From: Geoglobus sp.
Lineage (GTDB): Archaea > Halobacteriota > Archaeoglobi > Archaeoglobales > Archaeoglobaceae
Direction: 5' to 3'
Assembly: GCA_027019885.1 (NCBI GenBank)
Contig: JALUWC010000503.1
Location: 1 to 26,815, forward strand
DNA: 26,815 nt
A model generated the notes under the pieces. That model worked only from the letters and a program-made list of their open reading frames with translations, did no database searches and was not told where the DNA came from. Positions 2,403 through 20,385 of this stretch are shown in pieces (position 1 is the stretch's first letter; every line of letters starts with the position of its first letter). A program made the translations under genes and the position numbers.

Positions 2403-2801
2403 CTAAAGAACATGCAAGATGACTCTCCTTTTTCTTCTTCTCGTATCAAAGTTGATCAGAACAATCTGCTGCCATGTCCCCAGCATCAGCCTCCTGTTCG
2501 AGAAAGGCACGATCATGCTTGTTCCGATTATGGCTGATTTGACATGTGAGGAGCCGTTGTCATCATTCCATGTTCTGTGGTGCTCGTAATAATCTGAGTA
2601 TGGAGCTATTTTTTCCATGATCATTGGAAGGTCTCTTTTTAACCCCGGTTCGTATTCAAGCGTTGTTATCGCACCTGTTGAGCCGACAGAGAATATCAGC
2701 ACTGCCCCATCCTCTTTCTCACTCTTCTCAACAAATTTCTGGACTTCATCTGTTATATCGAGTATCTCGTCTCGTTCCATCTCAAATTCAACAATCTTCA
2801 T
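2403..2801 (-). CDS. YjbQ/UPF0047 family protein (COG0432)
   Basis: A 132-residue protein matching the YjbQ family over its whole length. It has the conserved block EHHRTWNDDNGSSHVKSAII (about 72-91) and the C-terminal signature LMLGTWQQIVLINFDTRRRK (about 105-124). Family members form a compact beta barrel-like trimer, and some have weak thiamine-phosphate synthase activity in genetic assays; the physiological reaction is not settled. The histidine/aspartate-rich block (HH, NDD) is thought to bind metal. The gene overlaps the upstream gene by 4 nt (ATGA), so both are made from one mRNA. Confidence 0.88.
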   Translation of the reverse strand: MKIVEFEMERDEILDITDEVQKFVEKSEKEDGAVLIFSVGSTGAITTLEYEPGLKRDLPMIMEKIAPYSDYYEHHRTWNDDNGSSHVKSAIIGTSMIVPFSNRRLMLGTWQQIVLINFDTRRRKRRVILHVL

Positions 2802-3244
2802 TCGTGTCCCCCCAGAGCTTTTTCAACAGCATCTTCAGGGTTTTCTGCGACAATCAATTTTTCCAGAATGACAGATGGTCTGTATGCAACCACTCTTTTG
2901 CCCTCTTTCAGTGCTATCGCCATCTCTGAAATCGTTCCATAACTCCCTCCTATGGAAATTAACACATCACTTGAGTGGACGATTATCATATTCCTTGCAT
3001 GGCCCATGTCCGTTGCAATAACATAGTCACAGTATTTGTTTGCCATTTCCCTATCTTTTCCGGGCACTATCCCAATAACAATCCCATTTCTGCTTTTAAC
3101 ACCTCTGCTTACGGCCTCCATAACTCCTCCAAGTCCCCCATTGATAACGACACAGTTTTTCTCTGCGAGAAGCTGACCTATCCTGAATGCCACCTCACAA
3201 ATATCGCTATAACAGCTCCCACTCCCTATAACACCAACCTGCAT
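2798..3244 (-). CDS. SLOG/TIGR00725-like Rossmann-fold nucleotide-binding protein
   Basis: A 148-residue protein of the LOG/'lysine decarboxylase-like' superfamily. It opens with a beta strand and glycine loop (VGVIGSGSC). It continues with the signature NGGLGGVMEAVSRG (about 35-48) and then ISIGGSYGTISEMAIALKEG (about 96-115), which in the family forms the PGGxGT-type nucleotide or phosphate-binding site. It is shorter than the cytokinin-activating LOG enzymes and fits the TIGR00725/YHI9_like subgroup, whose role is unknown. The start is supported by a GAGGTGAT ribosome-binding site. It lies first in a two-gene operon with the YjbQ-family gene and is divergent from the CdhC-like gene. Confidence 0.8.
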   Translation of the reverse strand: MQVGVIGSGSCYSDICEVAFRIGQLLAEKNCVVINGGLGGVMEAVSRGVKSRNGIVIGIVPGKDREMANKYCDYVIATDMGHARNMIIVHSSDVLISIGGSYGTISEMAIALKEGKRVVAYRPSVILEKLIVAENPEDAVEKALGGHE

Positions 3245-3307
3245 TTCATCACCTCTGACCTAATCTGTCAAAAGTCCTCTGTCTATTTATCGAAAGGAGT
3301 TAATTAA

Positions 3308-3316
3308 ATGATATGA
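3308..3316 (+). promoter_or_regulatory. Start-stop mini-ORF (Met-Ile-stop) overlapping the CdhC-like start
   Basis: ATG ATA TGA at 3308-3316 overlaps the ATG of the CdhC-like gene at 3313. The Shine-Dalgarno-like AAAGGAGT (3293-3300) is 8 nt from this upstream ATG but 13 nt from the gene's own ATG. If the leader is transcribed, ribosomes could start here and re-initiate. A TATA-like CTATTTATC (3282-3290) instead places the transcript start near 3312, in which case the mini-ORF would not be translated. Confidence 0.25.
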
Positions 3317-4410
3317 TCGAGAGGTTCATCGATCCTGAGAAGATTGAGGCTGACTCAGAATGCATTGAAATGAGTCCCCTATTCCTGGGAGAAAGAGTGA
3401 GAGACGGCAGGAGATTCAGGGGCTTTGAGCTTGTTGAGGCAGGAGAGGTTGATGAGGAGGGTGTTGAGATTGCTGGAGAGTGTGAAGACAGAATTGGATT
3501 GCATGTTATTGCAGAAGGGATAAGCGATGACTCCGCTCAGGCCATCGAAAGCCTTTTTTCAGAGGTTTTGGGCAGAATGAAGGGGGTTGAATACAGATTC
3601 AGAAGGGAAAATGTTGTTATAATTGTGTCAATGGACTCAGCTGACAGCTTTACCCCAGAATGTGTTGGAGAGACCATTTTCAGGACTGTAAAGTCAATTA
3701 AGGCGGTAAATAAGGTTAAGGTGAGGATCGTATGTGACAAAGACGAGTTTGAAAAGGTGTTAGAGAGAGCATCTGAAATACATGCTGAGAGGGAGATGAG
3801 GAGCAGGAATTTAGCTGAGAGGGATGTTCAGGAGTTCTTTATATGTGAGTCATGCAAGGCATACCTCCCCTACCATGCCTGCATCATAACTCCCGAAAGA
3901 CCCTCTCCATGCGGGACTCTCTACACTGAGGCAAAATCTGCCAGTGAGCTTGAAACCGTAAGCTATTACTCTCCTGTTGAAAAAGGTGAGGTGGTAGATG
4001 CTGAAAAAGGTGAGTACAGCGGTGTGAATGAGGAAATTGAGAGAAGAACTGAGTCAAGGGTCAGGGGTGTGAAGATTCACTCAGTTCTTGAGAATCCTCC
4101 TCTCACCGGGAATTTTGCCGAGGCGATAGTGTTTTACATTCCTGAGAGGGATGGTTTTGGGATTGCTGACAGAAATTATAGAAGAAAGACTCCCATCGGG
4201 CTGAGATTTGCTGAAATGGAGAAATTCATTCTCGGCACACAGGTTGAGGGGTTTGTTGGCATAAGCTTTGCTTACATGAAATCCAAGGGGTTTTTGAAGG
4301 GTGAGGGTGGGTGGAAAAGGGTTGTCTGGGTGAGTCCAAAGATTTATGAGTTCATCAAAGGCTTTCTTCCTGATGAAATTCTGAAAAACATTTCAACTGA
4401 AAAGGAGTGA
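3313..4410 (+). CDS. CdhC-like protein with degenerate acetyl-CoA synthase A-cluster site
   Basis: A 365-residue homologue of the beta subunit of CO dehydrogenase/acetyl-CoA synthase (CdhC, AcsB A-cluster domain). The spacing C178-x2-C181-x8-C190-x9-C200 matches the four ligands of the A-cluster [4Fe-4S] (C506, C509, C518, C528 of Moorella AcsB). Further family blocks are CIITPERPSPCG, GEVVDAEKGEYSGVNE, AEAIVFYIPERDGFGIADRN and GFVGISFAYM...GEGGW. The Cys-Gly-Cys that holds the two nickel ions (C595/C597 in Moorella) is T265-G266-N267 here, so a normal Ni-Ni site cannot form. No other cdh genes adjoin it. It could be a regulatory or electron-transfer paralogue, a cluster carrier or a scaffold; acetyl-CoA synthesis itself is unlikely. 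Homology is secure, function open. The ATG at 3313 follows AAAGGAGT by 13 nt. Confidence 0.85.
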   Translation: MIERFIDPEKIEADSECIEMSPLFLGERVRDGRRFRGFELVEAGEVDEEGVEIAGECEDRIGLHVIAEGISDDSAQAIESLFSEVLGRMKGVEYRFRRENVVIIVSMDSADSFTPECVGETIFRTVKSIKAVNKVKVRIVCDKDEFEKVLERASEIHAEREMRSRNLAERDVQEFFICESCKAYLPYHACIITPERPSPCGTLYTEAKSASELETVSYYSPVEKGEVVDAEKGEYSGVNEEIERRTESRVRGVKIHSVLENPPLTGNFAEAIVFYIPERDGFGIADRNYRRKTPIGLRFAEMEKFILGTQVEGFVGISFAYMKSKGFLKGEGGWKRVVWVSPKIYEFIKGFLPDEILKNISTEKE

Positions 4411-5563: not shown

Positions 5564-5637
5564 AATCTTTTTGATATAGATACCAGATTCCCAAATCTCA
5601 AGAATCAATTATGAGGAATACTGGAGGAGGGGAGATT

Positions 5638-6705
5638 GTGAGATTAAGCAGAAGGGAGTTTAATAAAGTACTGGCAGCAATGGGAGCATCAGGATTTCTG
5701 ATGTCCTACAAGTCAGAGATTGTAAGTGCGCTTGAAGAAGCCAAGAAGAACGACGTAAAGATATTCTGGCTTCAAGGACAGAGCGACTCTGCATGCACAG
5801 TGTCACTTCTTCAAGCATCAGATCCAGACATCTACGATGCTATTGAAGAGCTGAGCGTGAACATAGCATTCCATCCAACAATCATGCCTTCATTTGGCGA
5901 CGAGGCAATAAGCATTCTCGAAAAATACGATCCTGACATTCTCGTGCTTGAAGGAGCGATTCCAACTGGAGACATGGAGGTTGCATGCACATTTGGTGAG
6001 AAAAACGGAAAAGAAGTTACCCTTGTTGAATGGCTGAACGATCTCATCCCCAGAACAAAGATTGCCGTTGTTGGATTTGGAGTCTGCGCAGCGTATGGTG
6101 GGATTCCGTCAGGCAGAGATTACACCGGAAAAAGCCCTACAAATGCAGTTGGGCTTTACCAATTCCTGAAAGGTAAAAAGCCATCTGTTCCCGTGATACT
6201 GATACCTGGATGCCCGGGGCATCCTGACTGGCTTTTAACTGTACTTGCAGCAGCCCTTCTTGGAGTTGCTCCTAATCTGGATAACTACTGGAGGCCAAAA
6301 GCATTCTTCTCAAACCTAATCCACGACAATTGTGCGAGAAGAGGGTTTTATGATGAGGGATGGTTTGCAAAGAGCTTTGAGGAAAGCGACTTCAGATATA
6401 ACAAATGCCTTTTCAAGCTTGGATGCAGAGGGCCGATTACAATTGCTGCCTGTAGCGAAACAAAGTGGAATGGTGGTATTAATGTATGCATGAATGCCGG
6501 TGCTCCATGCATAGGCTGCATGCATCCAGGCTTCCCGGATGAAACATCTCCATTCTTCAAGGGGCAGAGCAGACTAGAAATTGATGCTACAAAAGCCATT
6601 TTCTCAACTCTGACTGGAGCAGTGCTTGTTGGAGCTGGCGCATACATAGCCATGCACGCATACAGGGAGCACAAGCTTGATAAAGAAAAGGAGGAGGAGA
6701 AATGA
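5638..6705 (+). CDS. [NiFe] hydrogenase small subunit, Tat-exported, membrane-anchored (VhtG-like)
   Basis: The 355-residue electron-transfer subunit begins with a Tat signal (LSRREFNKVLAAMGASGF, RR at 5-6) and ends in a membrane anchor (about 316-341). Distal cluster ligands are H229, C232, C257 and C263. Medial cluster ligands are C272, C284, C291 and C294; C284 replaces the proline of [3Fe-4S] enzymes, so a [4Fe-4S] medial cluster is expected. Proximal cluster ligands are C53, C150 and C192, but the expected first cysteine is D50 (QGQSDSACTVSLL where CTGC is usual). Aspartate ligation is known at the proximal cluster of F420-reducing hydrogenase FrhG and of some group 5 enzymes. I chose GTG 5638 because GGAGGAGGGG lies just before it and places the RR motif at the N terminus; ATG 5611 is in frame but lacks a ribosome-binding site. 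It overlaps the cytochrome gene by 4 nt. Confidence 0.92.
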   Translation: MRLSRREFNKVLAAMGASGFLMSYKSEIVSALEEAKKNDVKIFWLQGQSDSACTVSLLQASDPDIYDAIEELSVNIAFHPTIMPSFGDEAISILEKYDPDILVLEGAIPTGDMEVACTFGEKNGKEVTLVEWLNDLIPRTKIAVVGFGVCAAYGGIPSGRDYTGKSPTNAVGLYQFLKGKKPSVPVILIPGCPGHPDWLLTVLAAALLGVAPNLDNYWRPKAFFSNLIHDNCARRGFYDEGWFAKSFEESDFRYNKCLFKLGCRGPITIAACSETKWNGGINVCMNAGAPCIGCMHPGFPDETSPFFKGQSRLEIDATKAIFSTLTGAVLVGAGAYIAMHAYREHKLDKEKEEEK

Positions 6706-7358
6706 ATGAAATAAAAAGATTTGATTTGCATCAGAGATTTCAGCATCTCCTTCTGTTAACAAGCTTCATATTCCTTGCAGTAACTGGACTGCCATTGCTC
6801 TACAGATACACAGACTGGGGGATGGCAGCAATAAACGCAATGGGCGGAGTTGAAACTGTGAGAGGGTTTCACAGACTTTCAAGTTTTGTCATGATATTTG
6901 CAGGGATCTATCATATAATCTGGGCACTGGTAAAGAGGCCAGAAGGTATGATTCCCAGGAAAAAAGACATTCAGGACTTTTTCACCGATGTCAAATTCGT
7001 TTTTGGAAAGTTGAATTATGTTCCAAAATATGATAAGTTCAGTTACGTCCAGAAATTTGAGTACTGGGGAGCTTTCTGGGGAATGGTTGTTATGATTCTG
7101 ACAGGACTGGTGCTCAGCTATCCGGAGTACTTCTCACCGTCTGGAGATATATTCGTTGCAATACGGGTCGCTCACTGGGAGGAGGCAATCCTTGCAGTTG
7201 TTTTCATTGCAACCTGGCACATGTACTTCAGTCATCTCAGAAAGAAGTTCTTCCCATTCAACAAGTCTGTATTCACAGGGTATATGGATGTTGAAAAGGC
7301 AAAGGAAGAGCATCCCCTGTGGGTTGAGGAGGTGATTAAGCGTGGAAGTGGTAATTGA
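6702..7358 (+). CDS. Hydrogenase cytochrome b subunit (VhtC/HyaC-like)
   Basis: A 218-residue integral membrane protein with about four transmembrane helices (roughly 14-36, 57-78, 120-140, 160-180). It has paired histidines suited to binding two b hemes: H10/H15, H57, H71, H158, H173 and H178. Contexts such as RGFHRLSSFVM, GIYHIIW and ATWHMYFSHLR resemble HyaC and formate dehydrogenase gamma cytochromes. It would take electrons from the small subunit on the outer face and reduce a lipid-soluble carrier (menaquinone-type in Archaeoglobales, methanophenazine in methanogens). The start overlaps the small-subunit stop (ATGA at 6702-6705), and the end overlaps the large-subunit start by 17 nt. 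The gene order small-cytochrome-large is less common than small-large-cytochrome. Confidence 0.9.
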   Translation: MNEIKRFDLHQRFQHLLLLTSFIFLAVTGLPLLYRYTDWGMAAINAMGGVETVRGFHRLSSFVMIFAGIYHIIWALVKRPEGMIPRKKDIQDFFTDVKFVFGKLNYVPKYDKFSYVQKFEYWGAFWGMVVMILTGLVLSYPEYFSPSGDIFVAIRVAHWEEAILAVVFIATWHMYFSHLRKKFFPFNKSVFTGYMDVEKAKEEHPLWVEEVIKRGSGN

Positions 7359-8916
7359 TCCTGTAACAAGACTTGAGGGTCATCATGGTGTGAGGCTCAA
7401 CGTTGAGAATGGTGCTGTAAAAGAGGCTAAGGCTCTTGCAACAATGTTCAGGGGATTTGAGAGGATAGTGATAAACAGGGACATAAGAGATGCTCCAATA
7501 CTTCTTCAGAGAATTTGCGGTGTGTGTCATAATGACCACAGGCTTGCGAGTCTTTTTGCGATTGAAAATGCTGCTGGGCTTACAAACGAATGGGGGCATG
7601 GATTGCCAGATGCAGCACTTTTGCTGCGAAACATCATTGCAGCTTTGCAGTATGTCTTCGACCACCCTGTATGGGCATATGCTTTAACAGGCCCGGATTA
7701 CTGCGACACCCTTTTCAAAACAGGTCTTGTTAGATTTGATCCTCTCGTTGGACAGGGTGTCAAGGAGGCTGTTGAGGCGCAGAGAAGACTTCATCAGGCA
7801 ATGGCATACATAGGTGGGAAAGTCCCCCACATAATGACCCCGATTCCCGGTGGAGTTACAATGGAGATAGACAAGAAAGTCATTGCAAGACTGATAAGCA
7901 TAGTTCTGGATGTCAAGAAGTGGGCAATTGGTGTTGGCCTTAAAGAAACCGCCATTGAACACACAGCCGATGTGGCAGGATACATAATTGATGATGTGAG
8001 CAAAAAACTGGAAAAAGGAGAAAAAGTGATACCTCCAAACGATCCTGAGATAGGCAGGGGTCTTTACGATCTCGTTTCTCTGATCCTGGTTATGGCAAAC
8101 AAGGGTATTGGAGACATGGGGAAAAGAACCCCCACAATGCTCGCTTACGGATTTCTGACAGATACTGATGGAAAGCTCTTCTTCCCTTCAGGGTTCTTCA
8201 ACGGAAGTGACATTGAGAAGTTCGATTACAGAAAGATAAGCGAGGATGTGAAGCACTCCTACTACAGCGATGAAGCCGGTGGGGAGTATGTTGGAACCGA
8301 AGACACGAGAAAGCTCATTCCGGAATATGGTAAGGCTGGAGCATACACATGGGCAAAGGCTCCCAGATATGCCGGAAAGCCAGCTGAAGTCGGTCCACTG
8401 GCAAGAATGGTTGCAAAGGGTTTCAGAGATGGATGGGGTGTTGGAGATCCACTTGACCTCAGGAAGAAACTTGCAGGAGGCAGAGCAGCCAGCAATGCTC
8501 TTGCAAGAAACATTGCAAGGATTCAGGAGGAGCTTGTCATGATTGACTACCTTGAGAGTTTGCTCCTTCAGCTCACGGAGTACGCAGGGAAAAAGGTGTA
8601 TGTTGAATATCCAGACAACGTAACAGGAGAAGGGGTGGGAATGAGAGAGGCTCCAAGAGGAGCTCTCGGACACTGGATGAGAGCAAAAGATGGGAAAGTG
8701 GAGAACTATCAGGTTATCGCTCCAACAACATGGAATGTTTCACCGAGGGACTCAAATGGAACTCCCGGACCCCTCGAAGAGGCTCTTGTTGGGACTCCAA
8801 TAACCAAGGATGACCAGTGGGAAGTTATAAGGGTGATACACAGCTTTGACCTCTGCTTGGCATGCACCGTGCATGTGTTCACAAAAGATGGCAGAAAATG
8901 GGATTTTGTTGTCTGA
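7342..8916 (+). CDS. [NiFe] hydrogenase large subunit (VhtA-like)
   Basis: A 524-residue catalytic subunit that oxidises H2 at a Ni-Fe(CN)2CO centre. The N-terminal ligand motif is RICGVCHNDH (C59, C62) and the C-terminal motif is DLCLACTVHV (C505, C508, H511). The opening DPVTRLEGHHG block is the family signature. All four nickel cysteines are present, so the enzyme should be active. The 13 residues after H511 are the peptide normally cut off by a maturation endopeptidase after nickel insertion; no such protease gene is in this operon. The commonest form of the motif has Pro where L504 stands. The GTG start at 7342 is preceded by GAGGAGGTGATT and lies within the cytochrome gene. The 3' end faces the DUF99 gene across 6 nt. 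Confidence 0.95.
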   Translation: MEVVIDPVTRLEGHHGVRLNVENGAVKEAKALATMFRGFERIVINRDIRDAPILLQRICGVCHNDHRLASLFAIENAAGLTNEWGHGLPDAALLLRNIIAALQYVFDHPVWAYALTGPDYCDTLFKTGLVRFDPLVGQGVKEAVEAQRRLHQAMAYIGGKVPHIMTPIPGGVTMEIDKKVIARLISIVLDVKKWAIGVGLKETAIEHTADVAGYIIDDVSKKLEKGEKVIPPNDPEIGRGLYDLVSLILVMANKGIGDMGKRTPTMLAYGFLTDTDGKLFFPSGFFNGSDIEKFDYRKISEDVKHSYYSDEAGGEYVGTEDTRKLIPEYGKAGAYTWAKAPRYAGKPAEVGPLARMVAKGFRDGWGVGDPLDLRKKLAGGRAASNALARNIARIQEELVMIDYLESLLLQLTEYAGKKVYVEYPDNVTGEGVGMREAPRGALGHWMRAKDGKVENYQVIAPTTWNVSPRDSNGTPGPLEEALVGTPITKDDQWEVIRVIHSFDLCLACTVHVFTKDGRKWDFVV

Positions 8917-18130: not shown

Positions 18131-19297
18131 TCAGAGAAGATATGCCCTCACAATCTCGTTCTCATCCACGACCTCCACATTCTCATCCACAAGGGTATAG
18201 GCATTTGCCCTTGTTACGCTTGAAAGAATCCCGGAGCCATAAGAAGAGACTGGTTCCGCATTCATGGTTTCGAAATCAACTTTAAGCCTTACAAAGCTCG
18301 TAAATCCTGGTTTGGAGTATATTTTGCCTGTAATCCTGACATCAAATGAAATTCCATCATCTCTCCCAGCCATCCTCAAAATGGCGGGTTTGAGAAAGAG
18401 ATAGGCTGAGGCAACACATGCAGATGGAAATCCCGGAAGACCGAGTACGGGGGTATCATTAACCAATCCGAACACGGTTGGCTTTCCCGGCCTGAGAGCA
18501 ACACCCCTGAAAACAACATCACCCAGCCCATCAACCACCTGATAGAGCAGATCTCTCTTCCCGACAGATGTCCCTCCTGTTGTGACGATCATATCGTATC
18601 TCTCTGAATCTGAAAAAATCTCCTCTATTTTTTCTCTCACATCAGGAACTATCTCTGTTTTCTCTGCATAACCGCCCCACTCATTTATGTATGCTGAAAC
18701 CATCAGCCCATTGCTCTCTATAACCTTTCCGGGCTTCAACTCACCTCCGGGCTTTACAAGCTCATCCCCCGTAGGAACAATCTTGATCCTCGGTTTTCTA
18801 AAGACTTCAACCTTCTCAATTCCAGCCGCTCTCAGAAGTGCAAGGTCATGGGGTCTCAGGAGCTTGCCCTTTTCTGCGATCACATCTCCAGCACTCACAT
18901 CCTCTCCCCTCAGCCCGACATTCTCATATTTCCTCACAGACCTGTACACAGCAACAACCTCTCCAATCTCTTCAGTATCTTCAGCTTTCACAACAGCATC
19001 AAATCCCTCCGGAAGAGAATCTCCCGTATGCACCCAGACAGCATCAGTTTCCCTCTTCAGCAGAATGGGGTTTGTTCTCCCAGCGCTTCTCAGCATCCCG
19101 CTCTTAACGGCGTATCCATCCATCGCACACCTGTTATAGTGGGGCATGTCAATCTCTGAAAAGACATCAGATGCCAGAATCCTTCCCAAGGCATTTTCAA
19201 CCGGAATTACCTCGATATCGCCGTCTCCAAACGGCTTTATCCTTTCAAGCAATTTCCTCTGAGCCGATCTCAGACTTTCGAGCCTGTCAAAAAGCAT
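18131..19297 (-). CDS. moeA: Molybdopterin molybdenumtransferase MoeA
   Basis: A 388-residue enzyme that inserts molybdate (or tungstate) into adenylated molybdopterin. Family blocks are MPHYNRCAMDGYAV (conserved DGYA), HTGDSLPEGFDAVVKAEDTE, GLRGEDVSAGDVI, KIVPTGDELVKPG, IESNGLMVSAYINEWGG, MIVTTGGTSVGKRDL, FRGVALRPGKPTVFG and LGLPGFPSACVASAYLFLKP. Length fits the four-domain protein. I prefer ATG 19297 to the GTG at 19306, giving an 11-nt overlap with moaD. In a hyperthermophilic archaeon the product may serve tungsten enzymes. Confidence 0.93.
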   Translation of the reverse strand: MLFDRLESLRSAQRKLLERIKPFGDGDIEVIPVENALGRILASDVFSEIDMPHYNRCAMDGYAVKSGMLRSAGRTNPILLKRETDAVWVHTGDSLPEGFDAVVKAEDTEEIGEVVAVYRSVRKYENVGLRGEDVSAGDVIAEKGKLLRPHDLALLRAAGIEKVEVFRKPRIKIVPTGDELVKPGGELKPGKVIESNGLMVSAYINEWGGYAEKTEIVPDVREKIEEIFSDSERYDMIVTTGGTSVGKRDLLYQVVDGLGDVVFRGVALRPGKPTVFGLVNDTPVLGLPGFPSACVASAYLFLKPAILRMAGRDDGISFDVRITGKIYSKPGFTSFVRLKVDFETMNAEPVSSYGSGILSSVTRANAYTLVDENVEVVDENEIVRAYLL

Positions 19298-19538
19298 GAC
19301 CACCACCGCTCACAGGTGGAAAGATTGCCACCGTATCTTCCTTCTTCAGCATCAAATCTTTTTCTTTGTCTGCGATCTTCCCGTTCACAACAACAACCGC
19401 ATACCCCATCAGACCATGAAACTCAGGGTACATCGATACTAAATTTTCCAGGAGTTCTTTAAGACTCTTTGCCTCCACCTCAACTTCTCTCTTCCCCGCA
19501 ACCTCCCTGAAGTTGGCAAAGAGCTTTACAACCACCAT
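19287..19538 (-). CDS. moaD: MoaD/ThiS-family sulfur-carrier protein with tail after Gly-Gly
   Basis: An 83-residue ubiquitin-fold protein: MVVVKLFANFREVAGKREVE, LLENLVSMYPEF, VVVVNGKIADKEKDLMLKKE, DTVAIFPPVSGGG. The FPPVSGG end is the MoaD signature that becomes a thiocarboxylate and donates sulfur to molybdopterin. Unusually the frame continues GHAF after Gly-Gly, so the terminal Gly-Gly is not exposed. The tail codons overlap the moeA start. Activity would need proteolytic trimming, as for QbsE-type carriers, or the protein is used differently. ATG 19538 with GGTGAG upstream is preferred to an earlier in-frame start inside the protease gene. Confidence 0.85.
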   Translation of the reverse strand: MVVVKLFANFREVAGKREVEVEAKSLKELLENLVSMYPEFHGLMGYAVVVVNGKIADKEKDLMLKKEDTVAIFPPVSGGGHAF

Positions 19539-19551
19539 ACTCTCACCACAA

Positions 19552-20385
19552 TCACTTTTCCGCCTTTTTCTCCCCCTGACTTGGAGCAAACTCAACACCG
19601 GGGTGTCTCTGCATCAGAGGCTGCTGATAGAGATCCATGAGCTCGTAAACCTCTTCAGGAATGTCAGTTGAAATCCTGAGCCCGAACTCCCTTACTGTCT
19701 CGACCGTCAGTGGGTAATCGTGTGTCCATTTACCCTCTGTAAGCATTTCTGCCACCTCTTTTGCCCTTTCATCTCCAAGCTTGTCTTTGAGAAGAGAATA
19801 AACGAGCTCTCTCACCTGATTTATTGCCCTCTCAGCTATATCCGCCATTATCAGTGTCTGATCGTCAACATCGTTCAGATTCTTTTTCTCCACAGCCCTG
19901 AGTATTGACGGGGCTGGATAGTTCATGAGCTGCGGATCCACCGGGCCAAGAACGGCATGGGGATCCATTATTATCTCGTCCGCAGCAAGAGCTATGAGTG
20001 TGCCGCCACTCATGGCGTAATGAGGAACAATCACCGTGGTTTTTGCGGGATGATCATTCAAGGCCTTTGCTATCTGGGTTGCAGCAAGAACAAGCCCGCC
20101 CGGAGTGTGGATTATGAGGTCTATTGGCTTGTTTTCTGGTGTGCTCCTTATCGCTCTCAGAACCTTCTCGGAATCGTCAATGTCTATGAATCTGTAAACA
20201 GGGATGCCAAGAAAACCAATGCTTTCCTGTCTGTGAATTATTGTTATGACGTTGCTACCCCTCTTTTCAGCAATTTTCTCCATAAGCTTTCTTCTTGCAG
20301 AAACGAGCATCTGATGCTTCATCTGTGGCATGAATATCAGGTAGAGAAATATCAGGAGCCAGAATATACCGTAAAGGTCATACAT
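19552..20385 (-). CDS. SDH/ClpP-class membrane serine protease (SppA-like)
   Basis: A 277-residue protein of the 'serine dehydrogenase proteinase' family (Pfam SDH_sah), within the ClpP/crotonase superfamily. One N-terminal membrane helix (GIFWLLIFLYLIFM, about 6-19) anchors it, with the protease domain probably in the cytoplasm. Active-site blocks are IIHTPGGLVLAATQIAKAL (HTPGG at 93-97 shapes the oxyanion hole) and HYAMSGGTLIALAADEI with nucleophile S126, followed by DPHAVLGPVDPQL. It could cleave membrane protein fragments or signal peptides. It is unlikely to be a true ClpP because no ClpX/Lon partner is present. A TATA-like ATTTTATAAT near 20407-20416 may give it a leaderless transcript. 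The moaD gene follows 13 nt downstream. Confidence 0.85.
   Translation of the reverse strand: MYDLYGIFWLLIFLYLIFMPQMKHQMLVSARRKLMEKIAEKRGSNVITIIHRQESIGFLGIPVYRFIDIDDSEKVLRAIRSTPENKPIDLIIHTPGGLVLAATQIAKALNDHPAKTTVIVPHYAMSGGTLIALAADEIIMDPHAVLGPVDPQLMNYPAPSILRAVEKKNLNDVDDQTLIMADIAERAINQVRELVYSLLKDKLGDERAKEVAEMLTEGKWTHDYPLTVETVREFGLRISTDIPEEVYELMDLYQQPLMQRHPGVEFAPSQGEKKAEK

Follow-up and report, generated by a model that had tools for sequence, protein, structure and literature searches.

A stretch of 26,815 nucleotides from the archaeon Geoglobus sp. (contig JALUWC010000503.1 of assembly GCA_027019885.1, referred to here as the window) encodes a 365-residue protein, P0001, that is by its sequence a homologue of CdhC, the beta subunit of carbon monoxide dehydrogenase/acetyl-coenzyme A synthase (CODH/ACS). 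In the active enzyme the A-cluster consists of a [4Fe-4S] cubane and two nickel ions, and it is regarded as one of the most ancient catalytic centres. P0001 has the four cysteines of the cubane and has lost the Cys-Gly-Cys motif that binds the nickel. Its relatives form a conserved family and a single clade, and they occur in genomes that also have a CdhC match. We are highly confident that this family is derived from domains A2 and A3 of CdhC, is nickel-free and is not an acetyl-CoA synthase. As an explanation of the whole, we lean slightly towards a nickel-free [4Fe-4S] protein that would act as a redox iron-sulphur module.

The open reading frame (ORF) is uninterrupted. The Pfam family PF19436 (ACS/CODH beta C-terminal) covers residues 158-353 with 156.6 bits (E 1.1e-45), well over the gathering score of 25, so that the protein is a member, and the NCBIfam cdhC model TIGR00316 gives 248.7 bits, which is below its curated cut-off of 355.95. 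By sequence family the protein belongs to PF19436, but it does not have the nickel ligands that define an acetyl-CoA synthase. The best match among solved structures is 9c0s_E, the beta subunit of Methanosarcina thermophila, residues 6-378 of which align with residues 18-365 of the ORF. A passage of PMC11474084 places A2 of that subunit at residues 4-151 and A3 at 186-397 and describes a flexible extension of about 75 residues at the C-terminus. This alignment and these limits indicate that the ORF has A2 and nearly all of A3, that is, the A2-A3 fold of CdhC, and lacks the extension. A preliminary description of the window had noted that the protein is shorter than CdhC, which is correct; the shortness is that of the missing extension, and A2 and A3 are almost whole. 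Both domains are also common to bacterial AcsB (1oao, 1mjg, 7zkj), from which the window ORF differs in having neither domain A1 nor the nickel ligands.

Cysteines C178, C181, C190 and C200 align with C189, C192, C201 and C211 of 9c0s_E (the alignment from which all M. thermophila residue numbers are taken here), and the spacing, C-x2-C-x8-C-x9-C, is identical, as had been claimed. The nickel half of the site is different. In the M. thermophila subunit the proximal-nickel thiols are C278 and C280, while the backbone nitrogen of G279 coordinates the distal nickel and its carbonyl accepts a hydrogen bond from Arg500 of CODH, all according to a passage of PMC11474084. In a gap-free alignment C278 falls on G266, G279 on N267 and C280 on F268. 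Therefore, the earlier claim that Cys-Gly-Cys is lost holds, but the triplet that replaces it lies one residue downstream of the T265-G266-N267 that was named. Phe195, described in a passage of PMC11321310 as the sole alcove residue of the methanogen subunit, is replaced by Y184. Compared with CdhC (TIGR00316; 9c0s and 9c0t from M. thermophila), the paralogue is therefore without Cys-Gly-Cys, without the alcove phenylalanine and without the C-terminal extension, and with all three lost it would not be an ordinary acetyl-CoA synthase working in the known way. The codons of these residues are listed in Table 1.

A search of about 5.8 billion proteins returned 38 proteins of 338-378 residues, the window protein included, with E-values of 2.1e-95 or lower, and after these the E-values rose abruptly, with ordinary CdhC from 8.4e-60 upwards (among the best 120 of 256 matches). 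A profile search built on a second, short form of the protein, described below, added eight more (P0138-P0145), which brings the number of long forms to 46. The residue counts given here refer to these 46 (the window protein among them), to 16 short forms (P0135 and P0136 being incomplete) and to 113 CdhC proteins, 82 from the protein search and 31 from genomes of the order, between which some overlap is possible; the fragments P0137, P0146 and P0147 are excluded. All four cubane cysteines are present in all 46 long forms and Cys-Gly-Cys is present in none. Position 266 is always Gly, position 267 is Leu in 27 and Asn in 19, and position 268 is Tyr in 36, Phe in nine and Cys in one. Hence, the replacement is conserved among orthologues with respect to Gly266, but the two residues after it are not fixed. 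The place of Phe195 is taken by Tyr (36), Asn (4), Ser (3), His (2) or Thr (1), and never by Phe. In the CdhC proteins the equivalents of C178 and C181, as well as Phe195, are present in all 113, and Cys-Gly-Cys in 112, the sole one without a visible motif being the piece from the window genome, which ends before the site. The long form P0141 is the only one of the 46 with a cysteine at the second nickel-ligand place (T-G-L-C), and it lacks the first ligand.

The assembly of the window genome is fragmented (574 contigs, 8.75% contamination), which might invite the explanation that the gene is a pseudogene, a sequencing error or an assembly artefact. There is next to no chance of this, because the same features are present in 46 long forms, including those from single-contig genomes, and the relatives are under purifying selection, with a ratio of nonsynonymous to synonymous substitution rates (dN/dS) well below 1. 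The ratio comes from eight pairs, of which five have no usable dS (three undefined and two saturated, at 3.5 and 5.0), both pairs with the window gene being among the five. The 46 conserved long forms and the dN/dS of the relatives thus rule out error or decay, and the conserved orthologues found here are the opposite of what the preliminary description would have expected from simple decay.

Two further cysteines are specific to the family. C117 is present in all of the long forms, and in none of the CdhC proteins is there a cysteine at that position or within two columns of it; C17 is present in 45 of the 46 (the exception, P0036, has a cysteine adjoining the position) and is likewise absent from CdhC. 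These residues may form a disulphide or bind a further metal. Together with His256, a residue shared by all 46 long and all 16 short forms, they could be imagined to hold nickel on other ligands, in which case the protein would still be an acetyl-CoA synthase. We consider this highly improbable, given that the region of C17 and C117 does not exist in the short form, that the alcove phenylalanine and the C-terminal extension are gone and that 21 of the 22 genomes carrying the paralogue have a CdhC with Cys-Gly-Cys; to our knowledge, no other nickel site occurs in this fold. H256, P262, G266 and P199 are invariant, or nearly so, around the former nickel pocket, and the long form keeps the A2-A3 architecture, both of which would suit a protein whose inherited A2/A3 cleft takes up a small ligand, such as CoA or an acyl group, and whose cluster is structural. 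However, A2 is missing from the short form, so that a ligand held between A2 and A3 could not be a trait of the whole family, and this explanation is quite unlikely.

The short form came from a genome search over the order, which also matched frames of about 174-187 residues that have A3 only. A protein search with one of them gave 17 matches: 16 short forms, and P0137, which is part of a long form. Of the short forms 14 are complete, at about 175 residues, and have all four cysteines; Cys-Gly-Cys is present in none of the 16, and the second nickel-ligand place is Leu in 15 and Ile in one. In 13 of the 14 complete proteins (P0121-P0134) the first cubane ligand is immediately preceded by an extra cysteine (C-C-x-S-C). 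Domain A2 is absent, as is the region of C17 and C117. The source label of one short form, P0129, is that of a bin of Candidatus Hadarchaeota, a group other than the Archaeoglobales, which may reflect gene transfer or misbinning. At four loci (L050, L051, L052 and L054) the short-form gene converges on a gene of about 430 residues, and their 3' ends touch or overlap; from its sequence, we take this second gene to be a hexulose-phosphate-synthase-like fusion.

A tree of 99 rows was made from 38 long forms, 15 short forms, 25 CdhC proteins of the order and every fourth protein of P0039-P0119; P0135, the fragment P0137 and the long forms P0138-P0145 are outside of it. Long and short forms together make one clade (100/100) on a stem of about 1.6-1.8 changes per column, and P0039 is the closest of the CdhC proteins included. 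The short forms in turn make up one clade (100/99), placed within the long forms; nine of the 15 short rows fill less than half of the tree columns. The long forms alone are never one side of a branch in 200 bootstrap trees, and no starred branch forces the nesting. Since the two sizes make one clade and the short forms are placed inside of the long ones, the history is most simply read as a single loss of the nickel ligands, which preceded the loss of A2 in the short form.

The distribution of the paralogue bears on its relation to the CODH/ACS complex. It is present in 22 of the 57 genomes of the order, 16 with the long form and six with the short form, one of the six amounting to 67 residues beside a contig end. 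Contig ends truncate the long form in G024 and the short form in G044, and the carriers include single-contig genomes. All 22 carriers have a CdhC match, and Cys-Gly-Cys and the cubane cysteines can be read directly in 21 of them. The last one is the window genome, in which the contig with the CdhC piece ends short of the motif. The expectation of a separate intact CdhC is therefore borne out for 21 of the 22 carriers, and for the window genome it extends only as far as this piece. The piece lies together with an above-cut-off cdhA match on another contig, C80. The paralogue is, as had been stated, not in a cdh operon, and this, the separate clade and the score below the TIGR00316 cut-off also set it apart from CdhC. 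In a further search of 392 genomes drawn from the phylum, 21 matches were stronger than 1e-57, all in the window's own family among the matches listed, and the remaining listed matches, at 1e-44 or weaker, lay in long frames of the kind that CdhC would give. The paralogue family is mainly one of Archaeoglobaceae. Conservation, phylogeny, purifying selection and the co-occurrence with a CdhC that has Cys-Gly-Cys all agree with the earlier proposal of a paralogue put to another use. A genome of the window's genus, G030, has two CdhC matches on different contigs (C24 and C68) and no paralogue was found in it; it may have a real second CdhC or be a mixed bin.

One use that such a pattern could suggest lies in the assembly or maturation of the A-cluster: as a mimic of CdhC, the protein would be a scaffold that takes up the [4Fe-4S] unit before nickel is inserted. 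NifEN, which resembles NifDK, offers a parallel, and exactly the iron-sulphur half of the site is retained in cells that produce the complete cluster as well. However, among the 35 genomes in which no paralogue was found, a CdhC match is present in 28 (and absent from the other seven), which would imply that the paralogue is not needed for making the A-cluster. Nor do CooC-like maturation factors track it. Exactly two CooC-like matches (E 1e-20) are present in 41 of the 57 genomes, namely in 19 of 22 carriers and 22 of 35 non-carriers, and the window genome has none; this is not a useful association, and a tie to an extra CooC factor was rejected. We regard a scaffold as very unlikely.

The main rival to a redox role is a regulatory or decoy subunit of CODH/ACS, which would dock on CODH or on the corrinoid protein via the A2 and A3 surfaces and compete with, or protect, CdhC, its own cluster being structural. 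All 22 carriers have a CdhC match whereas seven of the 35 non-carriers lack one, and A2 and A3, both kept in the long form, both contact CODH in the solved complex as a passage of PMC11474084 describes it. But the contrast of 22 with seven is small and ignores kinship, and four of the seven genomes without CdhC are at most 81% complete. Moreover, the residues that face CODH at the cluster (Phe195 and Gly279) are replaced, the short form has no A2, and the gene is in no cdh operon. On balance, a regulatory partner seems unlikely.

We therefore return to the redox iron-sulphur module. A CdhC ancestor would have permanently lost its dinuclear nickel site and retained A2 and A3, and the four remaining cysteines would hold an ordinary [4Fe-4S] cubane. 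In the place of the nickel ligands stand an invariant Gly and, two residues on, Tyr or Phe (45 of 46 long forms) or Leu or Ile (short forms), and this Gly and the aromatic or aliphatic residues may fill the old nickel pocket as a plug that shields the cluster. The protein would then carry electrons or sense redox state in cells where a real CODH/ACS operates as well. We have good confidence that the cluster is present, and the retention of its four ligands alongside the loss of the features of nickel chemistry favours a plain [4Fe-4S] protein that would not bind nickel. The short form, which has A3 alone, points to the cluster domain as the part that must be kept. The retained ligands, the plugged pocket and the A3-only form together favour a redox or electron-transfer role, although, given the cluster, we would put this at somewhat less than an even chance. 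Several points weigh against it. The cubane is predicted from its four ligands, and the structure model of the short form has low confidence, with a predicted local distance difference test (pLDDT) score of 71.3. A two-domain protein of 365 residues exceeds what a simple electron carrier needs and would suit a regulatory partner as well. Among the 22 carriers no partner gene common to all loci was found, the neighbours differing between genera, and no cdh operon was found around the paralogue at any carrier locus, so that no cdh or oxidoreductase operon names a partner. A more specific version, which we offer tentatively and think rather unlikely in all of its parts, is that the A-cluster protein of a very ancient carbon-fixing enzyme lost its nickel and became a [4Fe-4S] protein dedicated to redox sensing in, or regulation of, the Wood-Ljungdahl system, to be cut later, in one lineage, to a lone cluster domain of 175 residues.

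The neighbourhoods of the gene display some patterns of their own. The divergent gene beside it in the window encodes a SLOG cluster 4 protein, and the same pairing is found in 12 of the 22 carriers, always divergent, in five genera and with both sizes of the paralogue; in G013 the two are about 0.75 kb apart. This adjacency supports a common descent of the long and short loci, and would mark an old gene order and possibly shared control. The SLOG gene is present in 46 of the 57 genomes, and 25 of those 46 have no paralogue, and so, it was rejected as a partner. Downstream in the window are rtcA and a [NiFe]-hydrogenase operon. In five of the six genomes of one genus, g3, a MoaD-like gene and MoeA follow the paralogue directly on the same strand (L006, L007, L008, L012 and L046), and in the sixth MoeA alone was called; the names given to these genes outside the window derive from similarity to the window genes. 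Their placement in g3 might suggest a cofactor link; in the window, however, the two genes are about 14 kb from the paralogue and on the opposite strand.

Table 1. Features of the window discussed in the text.
Feature	Position	Strand	Basis or remark
SLOG cluster 4 / TIGR00725 gene, divergent neighbour	2798..3244	-	adjoins paralogue in 12/22 carriers
68-base gap between divergent starts of SLOG gene and paralogue	3245..3312	.	
Nickel-less CdhC-like protein P0001, ORF, 365 aa; A2 + A3, no C-terminal extension	3313..4410	+	
C17 codon, second family-specific cysteine	3361..3363	+	45/46 long forms; 0/113 CdhC
C117 codon, extra family cysteine	3661..3663	+	46/46 long forms; 0/113 CdhC, nor within 2 columns
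A3-like cluster-binding domain, about residues 175-365; portion retained in short sub-family	3835..4407	+	9c0s_E alignment
C178 codon, first [4Fe-4S] ligand (M. thermophila C189)	3844..3846	+	Cys in 46/46 long forms
C181 codon (M. thermophila C192)	3853..3855	+	Cys in 46/46 long forms
Y184 codon, replacing alcove Phe195 of M. thermophila (F512 of Moorella)	3862..3864	+	Phe in 113/113 CdhC, 0/46 long forms
C190 codon (M. thermophila C201)	3880..3882	+	Cys in 46/46 long forms
C200 codon (M. thermophila C211)	3910..3912	+	Cys in 46/46 long forms
G266-N267-F268 codons, replacing Ni-binding Cys-Gly-Cys (M. thermophila C278-G279-C280)	4108..4116	+	alignment
[NiFe]-hydrogenase operon: small subunit, cytochrome b, large subunit, in order	5611-8916	+	Pfam
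MoaD-like and MoeA genes, about 14 kb from paralogue, opposite strand	18131-19598	-	

A literature search by title and abstract opening, with most subscription journals outside its range, found no description of a nickel-less CdhC family. The genome paper of Geoglobus ahangari counts GAH_00919 as an additional beta subunit, and the passage that does so does not mention the missing nickel ligands. GAH_00919 is very probably the G. ahangari orthologue in our set, P0006, because the source name of P0006, CODH/ACS beta subunit of G. ahangari, agrees and its position near 775 kb (in G027) fits the locus number by estimate.

These proteins advise some caution, in that not every gene annotated as CODH/ACS beta encodes an acetyl-CoA synthase. 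They also offer some useful material. Conserved proteins that keep only the cubane half of the site, of two different sizes and beside the intact enzyme, are a natural control for the nickel-free half of the A-cluster, and spectroscopy could make use of the short form, in which A3 stands by itself in about 175 residues. In conclusion, an ancient catalyst has seemingly been turned, in many archaea of the Archaeoglobus group, into a different iron-sulphur protein that would exist beside the normal subunit of the enzyme.
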